Positions 13,891 through 20,685 of a DNA stretch of 64,000 nucleotides are shown in pieces. Below the pieces are notes generated by a model that saw only the letters and a program-made list of their open reading frames with translations, did not search any database and had not been told where the DNA came from. The stretch comes from Caldithrix abyssi DSM 13497 (GTDB lineage: Bacteria > Calditrichota > Calditrichia > Calditrichales > Calditrichaceae). The DNA lies in contig NZ_CP018099.1 in the NCBI RefSeq assembly GCF_001886815.1, positions 4,152,501-4,216,500 of the forward strand. Direction: 5' to 3'. How positions within the stretch are numbered: the stretch's first letter is position 1; each line of letters opens with the position of its first letter. Both the position numbers and the translations under genes were made by a program.

Positions 13891-14046
13891 CTATCGCTTC
13901 AGCCAGTCGGTCAGCAATTCTTCTTCCACATTGTCGTTGCCCTCGCGGTCTTTCCAGTTGCCGAGATAGCGGTAACCGAGGGCGTTGTGGAAAAAAGCGA
14001 TTACCCGTTCCTGTGTTTGCCGAGCACGCTCGCCGATGATGCTCAT
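13891..14046 (-). pseudogene. hsdR: hsdR truncated after 51 codons (type I restriction subunit)
   Basis: The frame begins at ATG 14046..14044, overlapping the stop of the DUF262 gene as ATGA, and reads MSIIGERARQTQERVIAFF, then ALGYRYLGNWKDREGN, EEELLTDWLKR and TAG at 13893..13891. This is the standard HsdR N-terminus, just before its nuclease domain. Full HsdR has about 1000 residues with nuclease and helicase motors, and nothing of these follows. The next bases on this strand are unrelated, so the gene was cut by deletion rather than by a point stop. Without it the operon cannot restrict DNA by the usual type I mechanism, unless hsdR lies elsewhere. Confidence 0.8.
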
Positions 14047-16013
14047 GCGATTTTTTCCTTTTCTTCAGCCAGAATTTCATATCTGACATATTCTTTAAAT
14101 TCACCAATTGAAGTAAAACAACGAAATCTTGCTTGACTGGCCAGTGCAATTACCTCAGGGGGCTCGTTAAGTAAAATCGCTACCGGTTCGCTCAGCTCCT
14201 CTTGAATCCCATTGGGCCAGGCTAAATCAAATACCGCCTTTTGAATCCCCGTTTCAGGATCGGCAAAATCATAAGACAAAATGCCTTTCGGTAAACCCTG
14301 CTCCTCCATCCAGGCATTAAGCGCTTCCAGTTCCTGTTCTTCTTCTTCGCTGCTTATTCCGCCAAGCACTGTTTCAGGAGTCGGTGTAATCACTCTGGTT
14401 TCTTCAATCCATCTCGTATCGCCATGGAGCAATTCCTTTAACCGTTCGTTTACAGCTTTGGCCAGGAGCTTTTTTCGAGCTTCCAAAAAAGCGAGGAAGT
14501 TTTCAATTTTCCATAATTCCGGATCCATAGGAATCCACTGGGAAGCCAGTGCCCCCGGATGTTTTTTTTCTATTTCCGGAAAGTATTCCTCAGGCAACCG
14601 ATCGCTAATTTGAAGGTTTGTATCTTTTGTTAAAAGACAGAAGTTGGCCAGGGCGTTTACTTCGGACTTTTTGTAACGCCATTTTTTATCTTTATCATAT
14701 AATTTTGCCTTGGGGAAAATATGATGCACTTCTAGCTTGCTGCCTTGTCCCAACAAATTGGCTTTGAGTGGCAATCCCGTTCCCCAGTCTCGTGCTTCTC
14801 CCATGCGAGTCAGCATATAGAGTACCGGATAAAAACGGGCTCCTAAACTCCAACCGGTAAAATGCCCAGGTTCTACCCGCAGACCGCCATGCCAGAGTCG
14901 CAATTGTTCAATCAGTTTATCCAGCCCCCCATCCGGTCCTTCCAGCGCTTCCAGGTCCTGATCAATGTAAGTCTCAGTTGAACCAGAAAAGCGGCCCCAC
15001 ATTCCCGCCTGCAAAAACCAGAATAGCAACTTATCCCGTTCCACCTCATCCATCAGTCCCGTGCGCTTATCCAGATAGCGAACCATCACCGGGATACCAA
15101 AACGCCCAAACAGAACCCGGTCGTGATCCAGCCCCAGACGACTGCTAATTAGATTCAAGCAAGTGTTTATATGTTTTACAGCCCGCTTTAGACCGTCCTG
15201 GATTTCCCCAGCCGTTTTATCGTGCAGGAATTGAAACTTAGCTTCTCCAGTAAGCACAGTATTAACGGAGCGCAGCAGCCAGTCCAGATTGAAATGATAA
15301 CCAGCTTTCTCCCATTCGGCAAGATGTTGCTTCATGACTTCACGCGCTTCTGGCCATTCGGTACAGATTTTGGCCAGTGCCAGATCCCCTTTGGAGAGCT
15401 TAGTACCGCCGCTGTTCACCCGGTTAAAAATATCCACCACTACCTCAATGGTTTTGTCTTTTCCGGTAACTTCTTCCACGTGAAGATCAATATCCAGTAT
15501 GGCGATTAGCCGGCTAAGTCGCCCAGCATATTCACCGACCCGGGGCGCCAGTTCTGGTTGAGCACTGAGCCGGGCAATAAACTCGCCCAGACCGCTGGTA
15601 CCCTTTTGCATCAGCCTGGATACATCAATCCACAACGGATCATCTTTCATCTTTAGCGGTTGGTAGAAAGAAAATACTTCCTGATCCAGATGAAAATATA
15701 GCCCGGTGAAAGCACTGGCATTGCCATCGAAAAATTTGGGCGGTTTACCCCGCACTACTCCGTAAATGGAAGTCATCCGTTGCTGGCCATCCAGCAATAA
15801 TTTAACCACTCCTGGCGCCAGTTGCCCATCTCCGCGATAAAGGGCAGAACGAGATTCTGTAACCCATACCAATAGCCCGCCAATGGGATGGCGCCGGTAG
15901 AGGGAATCGAAAAGCCCGCGCACCTGATCGCGGTTCCAGACATACCCGCGCTGGAATTCCGGTAAAGCCATGTGGCCACTATCAATGTGGTCCAAGATGG
16001 TGGATATTTTCAT
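14043..16013 (-). CDS. GmrSD-like DUF262/DUF1524 nuclease family protein
   Basis: A 656-residue protein, start ATG 16013 overlapping the hsdS stop (ATGA). The N-terminal DUF262 domain has LPEFQRGYVWNRDQVRGLFDSLYRR (about 17-41) and the nucleotide-linked DGQQR motif at 75-79. The C-terminal part has an HNH-like segment, LEVHHIFPKAKL, followed by NALANFCLLTKDTNLQISDRLPEEYF, as in DUF1524. In GmrSD (type IV restriction) these domains together recognise and cut DNA with modified bases, using nucleotide binding. The gene sits between hsdS and hsdR with four-base overlaps on both sides, so it belongs to the operon. It may add protection against modified phage DNA or replace lost restriction activity. 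The role in this organism is inferred. Confidence 0.85.
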   Translation of the reverse strand: MKISTILDHIDSGHMALPEFQRGYVWNRDQVRGLFDSLYRRHPIGGLLVWVTESRSALYRGDGQLAPGVVKLLLDGQQRMTSIYGVVRGKPPKFFDGNASAFTGLYFHLDQEVFSFYQPLKMKDDPLWIDVSRLMQKGTSGLGEFIARLSAQPELAPRVGEYAGRLSRLIAILDIDLHVEEVTGKDKTIEVVVDIFNRVNSGGTKLSKGDLALAKICTEWPEAREVMKQHLAEWEKAGYHFNLDWLLRSVNTVLTGEAKFQFLHDKTAGEIQDGLKRAVKHINTCLNLISSRLGLDHDRVLFGRFGIPVMVRYLDKRTGLMDEVERDKLLFWFLQAGMWGRFSGSTETYIDQDLEALEGPDGGLDKLIEQLRLWHGGLRVEPGHFTGWSLGARFYPVLYMLTRMGEARDWGTGLPLKANLLGQGSKLEVHHIFPKAKLYDKDKKWRYKKSEVNALANFCLLTKDTNLQISDRLPEEYFPEIEKKHPGALASQWIPMDPELWKIENFLAFLEARKKLLAKAVNERLKELLHGDTRWIEETRVITPTPETVLGGISSEEEEQELEALNAWMEEQGLPKGILSYDFADPETGIQKAVFDLAWPNGIQEELSEPVAILLNEPPEVIALASQARFRCFTSIGEFKEYVRYEILAEEKEKIA

Positions 16014-16534
16014 ACCAATCGAATCCTCCCGGTTAACAGTTGTTGTATCATGCCTTGTTTAATTTTTTTGATTTTCTCCTGCCGCCGTTCTTACGCCTGT
16101 ATTTCAGAATCTACCCTGGAAAGATTTTGGGCAATGGCGCGTTGTTCGGGGAGGGGAGGAATACGTATTCGTCGAGCATGTGCTGCTTCCCGGTTCAGTC
16201 CAGGAACAGCACTATCTGCATTCATTTGGTCAAACCCAAGCGTTTGAAGAAGATAATATGTAAAATGAATATCTCTGCTTTTACCATTAGCTATGTAAAA
16301 TGTAGTATCAATAGGCCAAAATGAAACAGGCGACAAATGTACAGAGCCTACTGTTCCTTTACGGCCAATTATTATTCCAGGCCCATTAACAAGAGATTTA
16401 TTATGTTTTCCAATTATTCCATTAGATCCAAACACCGGCACTTGCCCAGATTCGCGTTCTTTTTTGGGTAGCCTTTTTCCATAGTGAAATGGGCAAAACT
16501 TCCCAATTGTGGTCTCAATCCATTCACTCCCCAT
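16010..16534 (-). pseudogene. hsdS: Half-size hsdS with one in-frame TAA stop
   Basis: From ATG 16534 (AGAGG upstream) the frame gives MGSEWIETTIGKFCPF, one target-recognition domain, and the conserved IPPLPEQRAIAQNLSRVDSEIQA, then TAA at 16093..16091 (codon 148). In the same frame translation would resume with ERRQEKIKKIKQGMIQQLL, TGRIRLV and TGA at 16012..16010, exactly the normal HsdS C-terminus. A Leu codon (TTA) changed to TAA would explain this. The total frame is only 174 codons with a single recognition domain, while normal HsdS has two domains in about 400 residues. Such half subunits could act as dimers. Alternatively, termination at codon 148 leaves a still shorter protein. HsdS selects the DNA target for HsdM. 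Confidence 0.75.
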
Positions 16535-16697
16535 ATTCCGGTACCTCTTTCTTTCGCATGGGAAAAACTTGTTCTGGAACCATATCATTTCCTGACAAAA
16601 GGAATATCATCCCTGTACATGTAACAGACATCCTTAGAATAGTTTGTTTTCTCACATCAATCATGAAGGAATTGGCACCTCCTATCGTATTTTACAA

Positions 16698-16755
16698 TGC
16701 ACTAATTTATTAAATATTAGTGCAATTCTTGGAAGCGTGCACTAATTCAGTGCAC
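16698..16755. promoter_or_regulatory. TGCACTAAT inverted and direct repeats between fic and hsdS
   Basis: TGCACTAAT (16698-16706) is followed by its inverse ATTAGTGCA (16716-16724), then GTGCACTAAT (16737-16746) with a partial inverse AGTGCAC (16749-16755). The four half-sites lie just beyond the stop of fic (16759) and about 165 bases before hsdS. They look like an operator for a dimeric winged-helix protein, and the Fic protein itself ends with such a domain. Binding is inference, and a role as a terminator hairpin is also possible. Confidence 0.45.
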
Positions 16756-16758
16756 ATC

Positions 16759-17847
16759 TCATCCGCTTGAGAGAAGTTCGAAAAGTCTCCAATTCAAATA
16801 GAGCATTTCGTTGCCGGCTTTATGAGGTTTTAAAATACCCGCTTTAACAAGTTCTTTCAGATAACCGGCGGCAATATTACGTGAGGCAATTCCAGCCTTT
16901 ACCAAGAAAGCAATCTTACAATAGGGTTGACGAAACAAAATTTCAATAAGCTCTTTAGAATAGATGCGTTTTGGAAGTTTCTTTTTAACTTCCTCCTCGA
17001 CTTCGTCCATCAGCTCACGAATAGCTAAAATGCGTCTGCGCGTAAAATCGGCCGTTTCTTCAATGGCCTGAAGCATAAACAAAATCCATGGCTCCCATTG
17101 GCCATTCTCTGTCACCTCTCTGAGCAGTCGGTAGTATTCGCTTTTGCGTTCAATAATGGCTTTACTCAGATACAAAACAGGCAGTTCCAGTAACCCCTGC
17201 TGAACAAGAAAGAGAATATTGATGATACGACCGGTTCTGCCGTTTCCGTCTGAAAAGGGATGAATGGCTTCGAATTGGTAATGAATCAGCGCTAGTTTTA
17301 CCAATGGGTCCATTTCATCTTCTGCGTGAATGAATGCTTCCAGGTTTTTCAGCTTTTCACGAATTACATTTTCGCCTTCCGGCGGTGTATAAACGACCTC
17401 CCCGGTGGCGTCATTAATAATTTTAGTGCCCGGAGTTTTTCGGATGCCTGCCTGGTTTTGTTTAATGATCTGCACCAGCCTAATAAACAAATTAGTAGTA
17501 AGCAGATTATCCTGCTTAAGTAATCGGTATCCTTCCCACAGCGCTTCACGGTATCGGAGTACCTCTTTGGTCGCCGGATCTATTTTGCCGGCAGCTACCG
17601 CAAATGCTCTGTACAGGGCATCATTTGTGGTGATGATGTTTTCAATCTCGGAACTGGCTTTGGCTTCCTGAAGGATCAATGAATCGATTAACATGGCCTG
17701 ATTGGGAATGGTAAGCCCTAATCCCTTAAGCTCAGCCAAAACCCGATTGGCTGTAATTGCTTTCTTCAGCACAGGCCTGGTCTCTACTTCCTTTCCCGGT
17801 GGGAGTAAAGGGAGCTCATTAAAGGGCTTTAATGGATCAAGTCTCAT
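16759..17847 (-). CDS. Fic-domain AMPylase-type protein with winged-helix tail
   Basis: A 362-residue protein, start ATG 17847 with GGAG upstream, overlapping the end of hsdM by 11 bases. The Fic core motif [12 protein letters not shown] starts at His196, with all catalytic residues present. The autoinhibitory helix motif SSEIEN (65-70) places it in the class with the inhibitory helix N-terminal to the Fic fold. A Fic N-terminal domain (about 1-90) and a C-terminal winged-helix (about 290-362, [16 protein letters not shown]...[13 protein letters not shown]) complete it. Members transfer AMP or other nucleotide groups to Tyr/Ser/Thr of proteins. The gene is part of the hsd operon, a position suited to a toxin or a regulator of the restriction system. 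Its target is not known. Confidence 0.9.
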
Positions 17848-19408
17848 AGTCTTCTCCAAAGCCTAAGTGCTTCAGATTCTTTCTGATTTCCGCCTCCAGC
17901 CGCTGGGCTTCCGTAAATTGCTCAAACAATTTCGCCGTCAGTTCAGTCATCTTTTCCTCAAAAGGGATTCCGTCATCTTCCTGAGGAGGAGCGCCTACAT
18001 AGCGTCCCGGTGTTAAAACATAACCGTGCTTACGGATATCCTCTAATGTGGCGCTTTTGCAAAAGCCGGGCACGTCCTCATATGTTCCAGCGTCAGACTC
18101 ACCACGCCAGGCATGATAGGTATCTGCAACTTTACGTATCTCTTCATCCGTTAATTCGCGATGCGTCCGATCGATCATTTGTCCCATATTTCGGGCATCA
18201 ATGAACAAAACTTCACCCCGCCGATCGCGAAAACGATGGTTCTTTTTATCCCGCGCTAAAAACCACAAGCAGGCCGGAATCGGTGTGGAATAAAACAATT
18301 GTCCGGGCAGAGCCACCATGCAATCCACCAAATCGGCTTCAATGATTTGTTTACGGATTTCCCCTTCACCGGATTGATTGGAGGACATGGAACCATTCGC
18401 CAGGACAAAACCAGCAACACCGGACGGCGACAAATGATGGATCATGTGCTGAATCCAGGCATAATTGGCGTTGTTTTTAGGAGGAATACCAAACTTCCAG
18501 CGTTTGTCATCTTTCAATCGATCGCCGCCCCAATCCTTCATGTTAAATGGAGGATTAGCGAGGATAAAGTCGGCTTTTAAATCGGGAAACCGGTCATTCT
18601 GGAAGGTATCGCCCTGTTCAATTTTACCTTCAATACCCCGAATGGCCAGGTTCATTTTAGCCAGTCGCCAGGTTGTGTAATTTGACTCCTGACCGTAAAT
18701 AGCGATATCTTTTACACGCCCGCCATGCGCTTTAATGAATTTTTCCGATTGAACAAACATTCCTGCCGAGCCGCAACAGGGATCGTAAACGCGACCTTTG
18801 TAAGGTTCTAACATTTCTACCAGAAGTTTGACCACGCTACGCGGTGTGTAAAATTCGCCGCCTTTTTTACCTTCGGCGCTGGCAAATTGAGAAAGAAAGT
18901 ATTCATAAACGCGTCCCAAAACATCTTTAGATCGCGCTTCTGCATCACCAACCATAATATTACTAACCATATCAATAAGTTGCCCCAGACGTTGTTTATC
19001 CAGAGAAGGCCGGGCATAATCTTTAGGCAACACATTCTTTAGTGAGGGATTATCTCGTTCGATGGCGTGCATGGCATCGTCAACAAGCGTGCCTATATTG
19101 GGCTGTTTGGCATTGTTTTTAAGCGCTGACCAGCGTGCCTCTTTGGGCACCCAGAATACATTTTTAGCACGATACTCATCCGGATCTTCCGGATCGGCTC
19201 CCTGGTCAATTTCTGCTTCTAATTTAGCATGCAATTCTTCAAAGGCATCGGAAATGTATTTTAAAAAGATTAATCCTAAAACGACATGTTTATATTCTGC
19301 GGCATCCATACTGCCACGTAGGGCGTCTGCCATACGCCATAGTTCAGCTTCGTAACCTATGTTTGCGCCATTATTGGATTTGTTGTTTTGTGCATTCCGC
19401 TTTGCCAA
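17837..19408 (-). CDS. hsdM: Type I restriction-modification DNA methyltransferase
   Basis: A 523-residue subunit. I place the start at TTG 19408, which has AGGAGG six bases upstream and gives [14 protein letters not shown], instead of an ATG nine codons earlier without a site. An HsdM N-terminal helical domain (about 15-150) precedes the N6-adenine methyltransferase: [27 protein letters not shown] (SAM binding, near 208) and NPPF (catalytic, near 285). It methylates adenine at sites chosen by HsdS. The gene looks intact, in contrast to hsdS and hsdR in the same operon, so a retained methylase with lost restriction is possible. Confidence 0.92.
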
Positions 19409-19486
19409 TTGCGGCCTCCTTTTGAAACGGATCATTGATAATAAGTAGAACTTAGGCTTCCATTAAAATATATCACCCTGGTAAAA

Positions 19487-19515: not shown

Positions 19516-19552
19516 TTTATTATCCAATTGTCAAAGTCCCTGGTTCCTGCTA

Positions 19553-19600
19553 ACGGCGGTTTTTCCCAAAAGGGATCCCTACGGGACAAGACCGCTGCCT
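19553..19600 (-). pseudogene. tRNA-Ser-like fragment with hairpin insert (unit B3)
   Basis: Shortest member of the downstream set: AGGCAGCGGTCTTG, two hairpins (the second with a four-base TTTT loop), then AAAACCGCCG. The variable arm and T-arm are replaced by unrelated sequence. Confidence 0.6.
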
Positions 19601-19654
19601 CTAATTTTACACAATGAAAACTCTGTTCAGAACGCCTGTCAAATAAATCAAAAA

Positions 19655-19677
19655 ACCCCGGCCAGAATTGACCGGGG
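19655..19677 (-). terminator. Intrinsic terminator behind unit B2
   Basis: CCCCGGTC / GGCCGGGG stem read on the minus strand followed by a T-run, a diverged copy of the terminator behind the intact tRNA-Ser. It shows that the terminator was duplicated along with the tRNA. Confidence 0.7.
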
Positions 19678-19684
19678 CTTGGTG

Positions 19685-19786
19685 CGGAGGATGAGGGACT
19701 CTCCACAGGATGCTGCGCAGAACCCCCAAGTCCTTTCGGACGGCGGTTTTTCCCAAAGGGATCCCTACGGGACAAGACCGCTGCCT
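19685..19786 (-). pseudogene. tRNA-Ser 3'-part with hairpins in anticodon and T loops (unit B2)
   Basis: Read on the minus strand it starts in the D-arm (AGGCAGCGGTCTTG), carries the 22-base hairpin pair in the anticodon loop, keeps the variable arm GTCC-GAAA-GGAC, has an 18-base hairpin insert in the T-loop and ends with the acceptor ATCCTCCG. The 5' acceptor strand is lost. It is nearly identical to unit B1, 199 bases away. Confidence 0.75.
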
Positions 19787-19853
19787 GTAATCGGGCACAA
19801 AGAAAAGCCTTCAAAAAACTTTGCTCCGTACCCCCTCTCAGGCAAAACAAAAA

Positions 19854-19875
19854 CCCCGGCCAGAATTGACCGGGG
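19854..19875 (-). terminator. Intrinsic terminator behind unit B1
   Basis: CCCCGGTC and GGCCGGGG with an AATTCT loop and following T-run on the minus strand. Homologous to the terminators at 19655-19677 and 20051-20076. Confidence 0.7.
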
Positions 19876-19883
19876 GTGTAAAG

Positions 19884-19985
19884 CGGAGGATGAGGGACTC
19901 TCCACAGGATGCTGCGCAGAACCCCCAAGTCCTTTCGGACGGCGGTTTTTCCCAAAGGGATCCCTACGGGACAAGACCGCTGCCT
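19884..19985 (-). pseudogene. tRNA-Ser 3'-part with hairpins in anticodon and T loops (unit B1)
   Basis: Identical in plan to unit B2. Compared with the 62-base matching part of the intact gene it is exactly 40 bases longer: 22 in the anticodon loop (TCCCGTAGGGA and TCCCTTTGGGA in tandem) and 18 in the T-loop (TGCGCAGCATCCTGTGGA). All tRNA stems are otherwise conserved. Confidence 0.75.
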
Positions 19986-20050
19986 GTAATCGTGCACAGG
20001 GAAAAGCCTTCAAAAAAACTTTGCTCCGAACGCCCGTCAGGCAAAACAAA

Positions 20051-20076
20051 AACCCTGGCAAAAATTGACCAGGGTT
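20051..20076 (-). terminator. Terminator of tRNA-Ser(UGA)
   Basis: On the minus strand AACCCTGG, a loop, then CCAGGGTT and TTTG form a classical intrinsic terminator six bases after the tRNA end. Confidence 0.75.
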
Positions 20077-20082
20077 TTAAAG

Positions 20083-20165
20083 CGGAGGATGAGGGACTCG
20101 AACCCCCAAGTCCTTGCGGACGGCGGTTTTCAAGACCGCTGCCTTACCAATTAGGCTAATCCTCC
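20083..20165 (-). tRNA. tRNA-Ser (anticodon UGA)
   Basis: An intact 83-base tRNA without encoded CCA. Acceptor GGAGGAT pairs ATCCTCC, discriminator G; D-stem GCC/GGC; anticodon stem GCGGT/ACCGC with loop CTTGAAA (anticodon TGA); long class II variable arm GTCC-GCAA-GGAC; T-stem GGGGG/CCCTC with loop TTCGAGT. Discriminator G and the long variable arm are serine features. It reads UCA and related Ser codons. It is followed by a terminator and surrounded by broken copies on both sides. It is the only undamaged copy in the window. Confidence 0.93.
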
Positions 20166-20685
20166 AACCTATCTGCCATACATGCTCAAAGATCCTTGCG
20201 GACGGCGGTTTTTCCCAAAGGGATCCCTACGGGACAAGACCGCTGCCTTACCAATTAGGCTAATCCTCCAACCTATCTGCCATACATGCTCAAAGATCCT
20301 TGCGGACGGCGGTTTTTCCCAAAGGGATCCCTACGGGACAAGACCGCTGCCTTACCAATTAGGCTAATCCTCCAACCCATCTACCATACATGCTCAAAGA
20401 TCCTTGCGGACGGCGGTTTTTCCCAAAGGGATCCCTACGGGACAAGACCGCTGCCTTACCAATTAGGCTAATCCTCCAACCTATCTACCATACATGCTCA
20501 AAGATCCGTGCGGACGGCGGTTTTTCCCAACGGGATCCCCACGGGACAAGACCGCTGCCTTACCAATTAGGCTAATCCTCCAACCTATCTACCATACATG
20601 CTCAAAGATCCGTGCGGACGGCGGTTTTTCCCAACGGGATCCCTACGGGACAAGACCGCTGCCTTACCAATTAGGCTAATCCTCC
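20166..20685 (-). repeat. Five tandem 104-base units containing tRNA-Ser 5' parts with hairpin inserts
   Basis: Units at 20166-20269, 20270-20373, 20374-20477, 20478-20581 and 20582-20685 are nearly identical. On the minus strand each holds the full acceptor 5' strand, D-arm, anticodon arm interrupted by two 11-base hairpins, and the start of the variable arm, and then switches within that arm to a 25-base non-tRNA tail (TTTGAGCATGTATGGCAGAT...). The T-arm and 3' acceptor are absent. Differences among units lie mostly in hairpin loops (GTA/GTG, TTT/GTT) and the tail, while the stems stay paired. The array directly precedes the intact tRNA in transcription order. Confidence 0.9.

Follow-up and report, generated by a model that had tools for sequence, protein, structure and literature searches.

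Double hairpins in the loops of partial tRNA copies: an array beside tRNA-Ser(UGA) of Caldithrix abyssi and its counterparts in other FCB bacteria

Introduction

The Ssn family consists of GIY-YIG site-specific single-strand nucleases, reportedly with repeated cognate sequences in Neisseria. The tRNA-linked repeats of Escherichia coli (TLR, tyrT/rtT) lie in tandem downstream of a tRNA gene, each with the 3' end of the tRNA. REP sequences and REPINs are paired, nearly mutually inverted short hairpins found in many copies, and their RAYT protein is an HUH Y1 transposase. The attC sites of integrons, conserved in structure and not in sequence, separate ORF cassettes in tandem arrays.

The locus considered here lies in a stretch of 64,000 nucleotides from the genome of Caldithrix abyssi DSM 13497 (the window; G000:C1:4152501-4216500, on one contig of 4,978,541 bp), and is an array of partial tRNA-Ser copies whose anticodon loops are split by two small hairpins. 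I will refer to such paired adjacent small hairpins as a double hairpin (DH); in the anticodon loops of the window it is made of two 4-3-4 hairpins. The loci described below resemble Ssn in that a small stand-alone GIY-YIG protein is linked to a repeated, palindrome-rich genomic target, but the target here consists of paired 4-3-4 hairpins in tandemly arrayed partial tRNA copies, and a tRNA gene directly adjoins the nuclease ORF. UPF0213/YhbQ-like proteins offer the closest solved structures by sequence, but no association of them with tRNA or hairpins was found in the literature searched. Where 3' ends of a tRNA are repeated in tandem behind it, as in a tRNA-Glu array (at least 12 units) and in units D1 and D2 of the window, the loci are like TLRs; TLRs are not known, however, to have a hairpin pair in a loop, a nuclease cassette or upstream units made of 5' halves, and they belong to another phylum. 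With REP/REPIN-RAYT systems the loci share two adjacent short hairpins, many genomic copies and a dedicated nuclease gene nearby, but the partner here is (by adjacency) a GIY-YIG protein, the sites are hairpin loops of tRNA copies, and the sequence is not fixed within a genome. Structure-conserved sites and tandem cassette arrays are also features of integrons, whereas here no integrase was identified, there are no attC boxes, and the sites lie within tRNA arms.

Results

The array in the window

Eight partial copies of tRNA-Ser and one intact tRNA-Ser(UGA) gene lie on the minus strand, in the order, from position 20685 downward, of five copies, the intact gene, and three copies. The features, in window coordinates, are:

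20582-20685 (-): upstream unit U1, 5' part of tRNA-Ser; hairpin pair at 20629-20650, TCCCGTAGGGA TCCCGTTGGGA
20478-20581 (-): upstream unit U2; hairpin pair at 20525-20546, TCCCGTGGGGA TCCCGTTGGGA
20374-20477 (-): upstream unit U3; hairpin pair at 20421-20442, TCCCGTAGGGA TCCCTTTGGGA
20270-20373 (-): upstream unit U4; hairpin pair at 20317-20338
20166-20269 (-): upstream unit U5; hairpin pair at 20213-20234
20082-20165 (-): intact tRNA-Ser(UGA) gene, anticodon TGA (ARAGORN; Rfam RF00005, 62 bits)
19883-19986 (-): downstream unit D1, anticodon arm through acceptor 3' strand, then a terminator-like stem; anticodon-loop pair at 19950-19971
19901-19918 (-): T-loop insert of D1, 18 nt, two 3-3-3 hairpins (TGC-GCA-GCA and TCC-TGT-GGA) with flanks GGTTC and GAGTCC, read against the intact tRNA
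19684-19787 (-): downstream unit D2; anticodon-loop hairpin pair at 19751-19772
19702-19719 (-): T-loop insert of D2, 18 nt, identical to that of D1 by direct reading
19538-19601 (-): downstream unit D3, degenerate; hairpin pair at 19564-19586, 23 nt, second loop TTTT

The upstream units repeat with a period of 104 nt and contain the acceptor 5' strand, D arm, anticodon arm, variable arm and a spacer, without a T arm. The 35-nt 5' half of the intact gene is identical in all five (six copies in all). The three downstream units have the anticodon and variable arms without the acceptor 5' strand and D arm, and only two of them have the T arm and acceptor 3' strand. The initial annotation had described eight broken units around an intact tRNA-Ser(UGA), with two hairpins inserted behind the anticodon's G in every broken unit, and that description stands: in 8 of 8 units the DH lies between CTTG and AAA of the anticodon loop. 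The length it gave for every insert, exactly 22 bases, holds for seven units and fails for the last, where the insert has 23. Removal of the insert does restore the anticodon loop, as claimed, but not a tRNA, because the units are only partial tRNAs. Overlooked were the 18-nt hairpin pairs in the T loops of two downstream units and two sister arrays elsewhere in the genome.

A structural probe modeled on the double hairpin (R1), derived from 5 real sequences and 12 synthetic compensated variants, scores 48-56 bits on all eight units, while ARAGORN and Rfam recognize none of the eight as tRNA and find only 20082-20165. A functional-tRNA identity was rejected for the units, which do not make up a complete cloverleaf, as was their reading as tRNAs with introns, since they are partial, either without the T arm or without the acceptor strand and D arm. 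Some full-length split copies in other genomes would become whole tRNAs on removal of the insert; several of these adjoin an intact copy, and two (L189 and L193) have none within the stretch examined. The 22-nt hairpin pair, which the initial annotation had proposed to seek genome-wide, has no other occurrence in the 4.98-Mb Caldithrix genome with up to 3 mismatches allowed. An assembly error is unlikely, given a contig that is a single sequence of 4.98 Mb and the recurrence of the anatomy in independent genomes.

Next to the array, at 14043-19435 (-), are found in a row HsdM (type I), a short HsdS-like ORF (165 aa), a Fic protein and a GmrSD-type (DUF262) protein, a restriction/defence cluster whose specificity subunit is possibly truncated.

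Sister arrays in Caldithrix

The genome holds three arrays: that of the window, T-loop units after tRNA-Glu, and D-loop units before tRNA-Ser(CGA). The second (L082:4818-6935; G000:C1:4552817 onward) has at least 12 tandem copies of the 3' part of tRNA-Glu following tRNA-Glu(TTC), with pairs such as TCCCACAGGGA-CTCCTRCGGAG in the split T loop and a terminator-like stem after each unit. The third (L225:5421-6660; G000:C1:3698420-3699660) has eight D-loop-split 5' copies of tRNA-Ser(CGA) upstream of the intact gene, with hairpins of 11 and 9 nt, the first of them identical to the window's first hairpin. There the intact tRNA-Ser(CGA) is followed by an intact GIY-YIG ORF (G000:C1:3698429-3698662), starting at the end of the tRNA, and then by a degenerate anticodon-loop DH. 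This is the one GIY-YIG/DH cassette of Caldithrix; no trace of a GIY-YIG gene was found within the window.

The same anatomy in related genomes

A degenerate-pattern search turned up two units in G025, a genome of a second family within the class; they have the DH in the anticodon loop and lie immediately upstream of tRNA-Ser(UGA). Their insert, CCCCAAAGGGA-TTCCGATGGAA, is again 22 nt, and its hairpin sequence differs from that of Caldithrix. A pattern free of structure, CGGTCTTG-N(12-40)-AAAACCG, led to a genome from a third family (G024), with the insert CCACGGAGTGG-TCCCTCCGGGA; this genome also has T-loop-split copies of tRNA-Ser(GCU) with hairpin pairs of their own. The neighbors of the loci in both genomes are unrelated to those in the window. 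Probe R1 matches 19 of 40 genomes of the class, in a patchy distribution. One of the loci (L262, genome G067) consists of an anticodon DH unit, tRNA-Ser(UGA), a GIY-YIG ORF and an anticodon DH fragment, and so is the anatomy of the window with the nuclease present.

At the orthologous locus of a genome of the same genus (G003), tRNA-Ser(UGA) comes after Dus without any upstream unit, and the contig ends inside that tRNA. The end in question (L271; G003:C269:1-60) falls within the anticodon arm, which is where a contig would be expected to break off if the next sequence were a collapsed repeat. DH arrays may escape notice in short-read assemblies.

Structure of the double hairpin

Stems covary and loops vary. 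In the T-loop set, the three pairs left free by the search pattern are Watson-Crick in 73, 79 and 74 of 83 FCB loci, and in 3, 4 and 5 of the 10 matches outside FCB. The closing pairs of the DH are C-G, and the loop of the first hairpin is usually purine-N-A, that of the second usually TNY. The anticodon set, partly fetched with a structural model, has 95.5% paired cells and 18 double-sided changes, a level reached in 0 of 500 shuffles. Since part of this set was fetched with the model, the cleanest evidence is provided by three independently fetched sequences (from the searches that found G025 and G024). The contention of the initial annotation that the array reflects conserved structure and not random decay, for which it had proposed an alignment for compensatory changes, is strongly supported by this covariation.

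The MFE fold of a single window unit favors one long hairpin. That form was nonetheless rejected by the T-loop comparison, in which two separate hairpins are 96% Watson-Crick, as against 64% for the one long hairpin. Comparison alone, and not the MFE of a single unit, argues for the two-hairpin form.

Distribution and association with tRNA genes

A scan of about 85,000 species genomes with the T-loop DH pattern gave 93 stretches, about 83 of them in FCB phyla: Calditrichota, Ignavibacteria, Bacteroidota (Balneolaceae, Prolixibacteraceae, Cyclobacteriaceae and others) and Neomarinimicrobiota. A viral origin was rejected, as viral contigs contained neither a match to the T-loop pattern nor a relative of the GIY-YIG protein (0 of each). 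At 45 of the 83 loci an intact tRNA accompanies the split copy and agrees with it in its 3' tail; these tRNAs lie on the same strand as the copy (45/45), mostly upstream of it (42/45), at a median distance of 122 bp, and represent 17 isoacceptors. That diversity and the location in the T loop show that the DH is confined neither to tRNA-Ser nor to the anticodon.

In 0.9 Mb of loci, strict DHs number 128, compared to 2.8 in shuffles, a contrast that measures strength of signal and not genome-wide frequency, the loci having been preselected for DHs. (A scan strict on the outer stem failed to detect tRNA sites and was superseded.) DHs occur in anticodon, T and D loops, at the junction of variable arm and T stem, and at the tips of non-tRNA palindromes, including some in L089 and L095. 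Their insertion points share TT(C/G) on one side and (G/A)AA on the other. The initial annotation's suggestion of a minute palindromic element that targets tRNA loops comes close to this picture, of hairpin pairs in the anticodon, T and D loops of many tRNAs and also at the palindrome tips. It had also named hairpin pairs scattered at non-tRNA sites as a refutation of its reading; this is borne out in part, but such sites too are hairpin tips, so that the feature is broadened, not removed.

Double hairpins tip palindromic repeats away from tRNAs in L249-L256, L261, L264, L265 and L268, for example AACCTTCAAGGTTTT..AAAACCTTGAAGGTT. An 18-nt palindrome of C. abyssi, aAACCGTTgaAACGGTTt, has been published (PMC5317091); its center, TTGAA, resembles the hairpin insertion points. 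The retrieved passages of that paper make no mention of DH arrays.

A GIY-YIG nuclease linked to double hairpins

At three loci (L178, L170 and L173) an ORF of about 80 aa separates a tRNA-Glu copy split by a DH from the intact copy or from the next one. It encodes a member of the GIY-YIG family (Pfam PF01541, E 3e-17), with the catalytic residues Y5, Y16/G18, R26, H30 and E62 invariant in 16 proteins; the nearest solved structures are the UPF0213/YhbQ-like proteins PDB 1ywl (E 4e-8) and 1zg2 (E 1e-5). Among the 83 T-loop loci, an independently fetched set, 32 have a GIY-YIG ORF within 400 bp of the DH, on the same strand in every case, and 51 have no nuclease within that distance. Within the class, 6 of 10 close GIY-YIG genes have a model-detected DH within 300 bp (0.018 expected), and for most of the closest homologues the gene begins 0-21 bp beyond an intact tRNA-Ser, with a DH-split tRNA 3' part behind it. 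Genome-wide searches of 23 T-loop genomes, chosen for having DHs, gave the same adjacency for close homologues.

Elsewhere, then, the element takes a full form: an intact tRNA, the ORF of about 80 aa at or just after its 3' end, and a second, partial copy of the tRNA with a DH in its anticodon, T or D loop. Full cassettes were read directly at L087, L086, L228, L178, L173 and L262. At the cassette loci read closely, the intact tRNA is retained and it is the copy whose loop is split, which would recall a homing endonuclease element only if the cleavage site lay in that loop. More distant GIY-YIG cassettes, between tRNA-Cys or tRNA-Glu and split 3' copies, have one larger hairpin (CCCGCCTGAGGCGGG; TCCCGATTCTCGGGA). 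Distant GIY-YIG genes also stand in tandem after tRNA-Glu or tRNA-Cys in L234, L235, L236, L237 and L239, several with 3' copies split by a single larger hairpin.

A nuclease does not accompany every array. G025, a genome of 100% completeness, contains DH arrays and nothing closer than a distant GIY-YIG (E 1e-6); in G024 and G039 none was detected. A resident nuclease is therefore unnecessary for an array to persist.

Discussion

I consider it reasonably probable that the window array is a tandemly amplified, non-autonomous member, without a GIY-YIG gene, of a tRNA-associated family of elements in FCB bacteria. The paired hairpins themselves are probably a site of nuclease recognition or of recombination, as suggested by their conserved shape, the linkage to the nuclease, and the analogy with Ssn and its repeats. 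The GIY-YIG enzyme would recognize, probably in single-stranded DNA, either the DH or the hairpin loop in which the split arises. A cassette, or a cassette circle, might then recombine with the tRNA in Campbell-like fashion through the homologous tRNA arms that flank the loop. A single crossover through the 3' arm would give the intact tRNA, the payload and a DH copy downstream, and one through the 5' arm would give a DH copy upstream, the payload and the intact tRNA. Both orders are observed, and a working tRNA is kept in both. Repetition of the process or unequal crossing-over could produce arrays, in which cassettes devoid of the ORF would persist, as in the window. The DH might label a copy so that it is not cleaved, or might serve the element as its own recognition site; I favor the latter. 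Against the proposal are the absence of a GIY-YIG gene from the window, the 51 of 83 loci with no nearby nuclease and the persistence of arrays without a close nuclease, as well as the DHs on non-tRNA palindromes, which a purely tRNA-based cassette does not explain.

A stronger version of the proposal can be offered only tentatively: that these are a new class of mobile or self-amplifying element of FCB bacteria, in which a GIY-YIG enzyme acts on paired-hairpin sites in tRNA loops, defined by structure, with nuclease-less arrays as its satellites. Such an element would use tRNA arms as homology and insert beside tRNA genes without breaking them, in the manner of integron cassettes or REPINs, from which its enzyme and its scaffold of tRNA would set it apart.

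The DH could instead be an independent tiny palindromic element, REP/REPIN- or MITE-like, mobilized by a transposase into any hairpin tip, with the GIY-YIG genes as separate passengers. The many DHs on non-tRNA palindromes (L089, L095, L249-L256) speak for this, along with the shared insertion motif and the DHs that have no GIY-YIG nearby. I nevertheless think it unlikely: the linkage to GIY-YIG genes is strong and consistent in strand, the DH sequence varies between sites of one genome, unlike a copied element, and, where tRNA loci were read closely, the copy with the DH is additional to an intact tRNA next to it.

Somewhat less probable still is that the units are functional RNA, transcribed with the tRNA as leader or trailer (as decoys for tRNA enzymes, processing signals or regulators), and that the hairpins are RNA structures under selection. 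Hairpins of the CUUCGG type are stable in RNA, what is conserved is structure and not sequence, and the upstream units fall within the presumed leader of tRNA-Ser(UGA). The downstream units, however, are beyond terminator-like stems, and the distribution is patchy within both class and genus. The units match the tRNA of their own host (in the window and in G025) and differ between species, which marks them as recent or homogenized. Nor does functional RNA account for the same hairpin pairs at the tips of unrelated palindromes or for the linkage to a nuclease ORF.

Anticodon and T loops are crossover regions for integrases, and tRNA genes are hot spots of integration. Split copies of attB-type anticodon and T stems might thus serve as decoy attachment sites that absorb or block integration by tyrosine integrases, and genomic islands adjoining tRNA genes are indeed reported in C. 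abyssi, in passages of PMC5317091. This has little probability, as it does not fit the D-loop and non-tRNA sites and leaves the GIY-YIG cassette unaccounted for. Decoys against anticodon nucleases tied to the neighboring hsd locus, as the initial annotation had suggested, can be dismissed almost entirely: an hsdM/hsdS locus does adjoin the array and anticodon loops are the target of PrrC-type enzymes, but the inserts are not confined to anticodon loops, being found in those of the T and D arms as well, and involve 17 or more isoacceptors, the adjacent ORFs tested (HsdM, HsdS, Fic and GmrSD) include no PrrC-like gene, and the neighbors at the G024 and G025 loci are unrelated.

Real and conserved in structure, the array belongs to a widespread phenomenon of FCB bacteria, most likely a family of GIY-YIG-associated elements. 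No published description of these elements was found in the literature searched, whose scope stopped short of the original description of Ssn, and this family of elements riding on tRNA genes is apparently undescribed. It brings together three subjects that as a rule are kept separate, namely the small stand-alone GIY-YIG nucleases, the palindromic repeats found outside genes, and the use of tRNA genes as sites of integration. If the hairpin pairs are the substrate of the nuclease, they would constitute a structure-specific nuclease system that is directly testable, and would explain puzzling tRNA pseudo-copies in Bacteroidota, Ignavibacteria and Calditrichota that tRNA finders miss. The proposal would also provide a concrete model of how an element may be amplified beside an essential tRNA gene without harming it.
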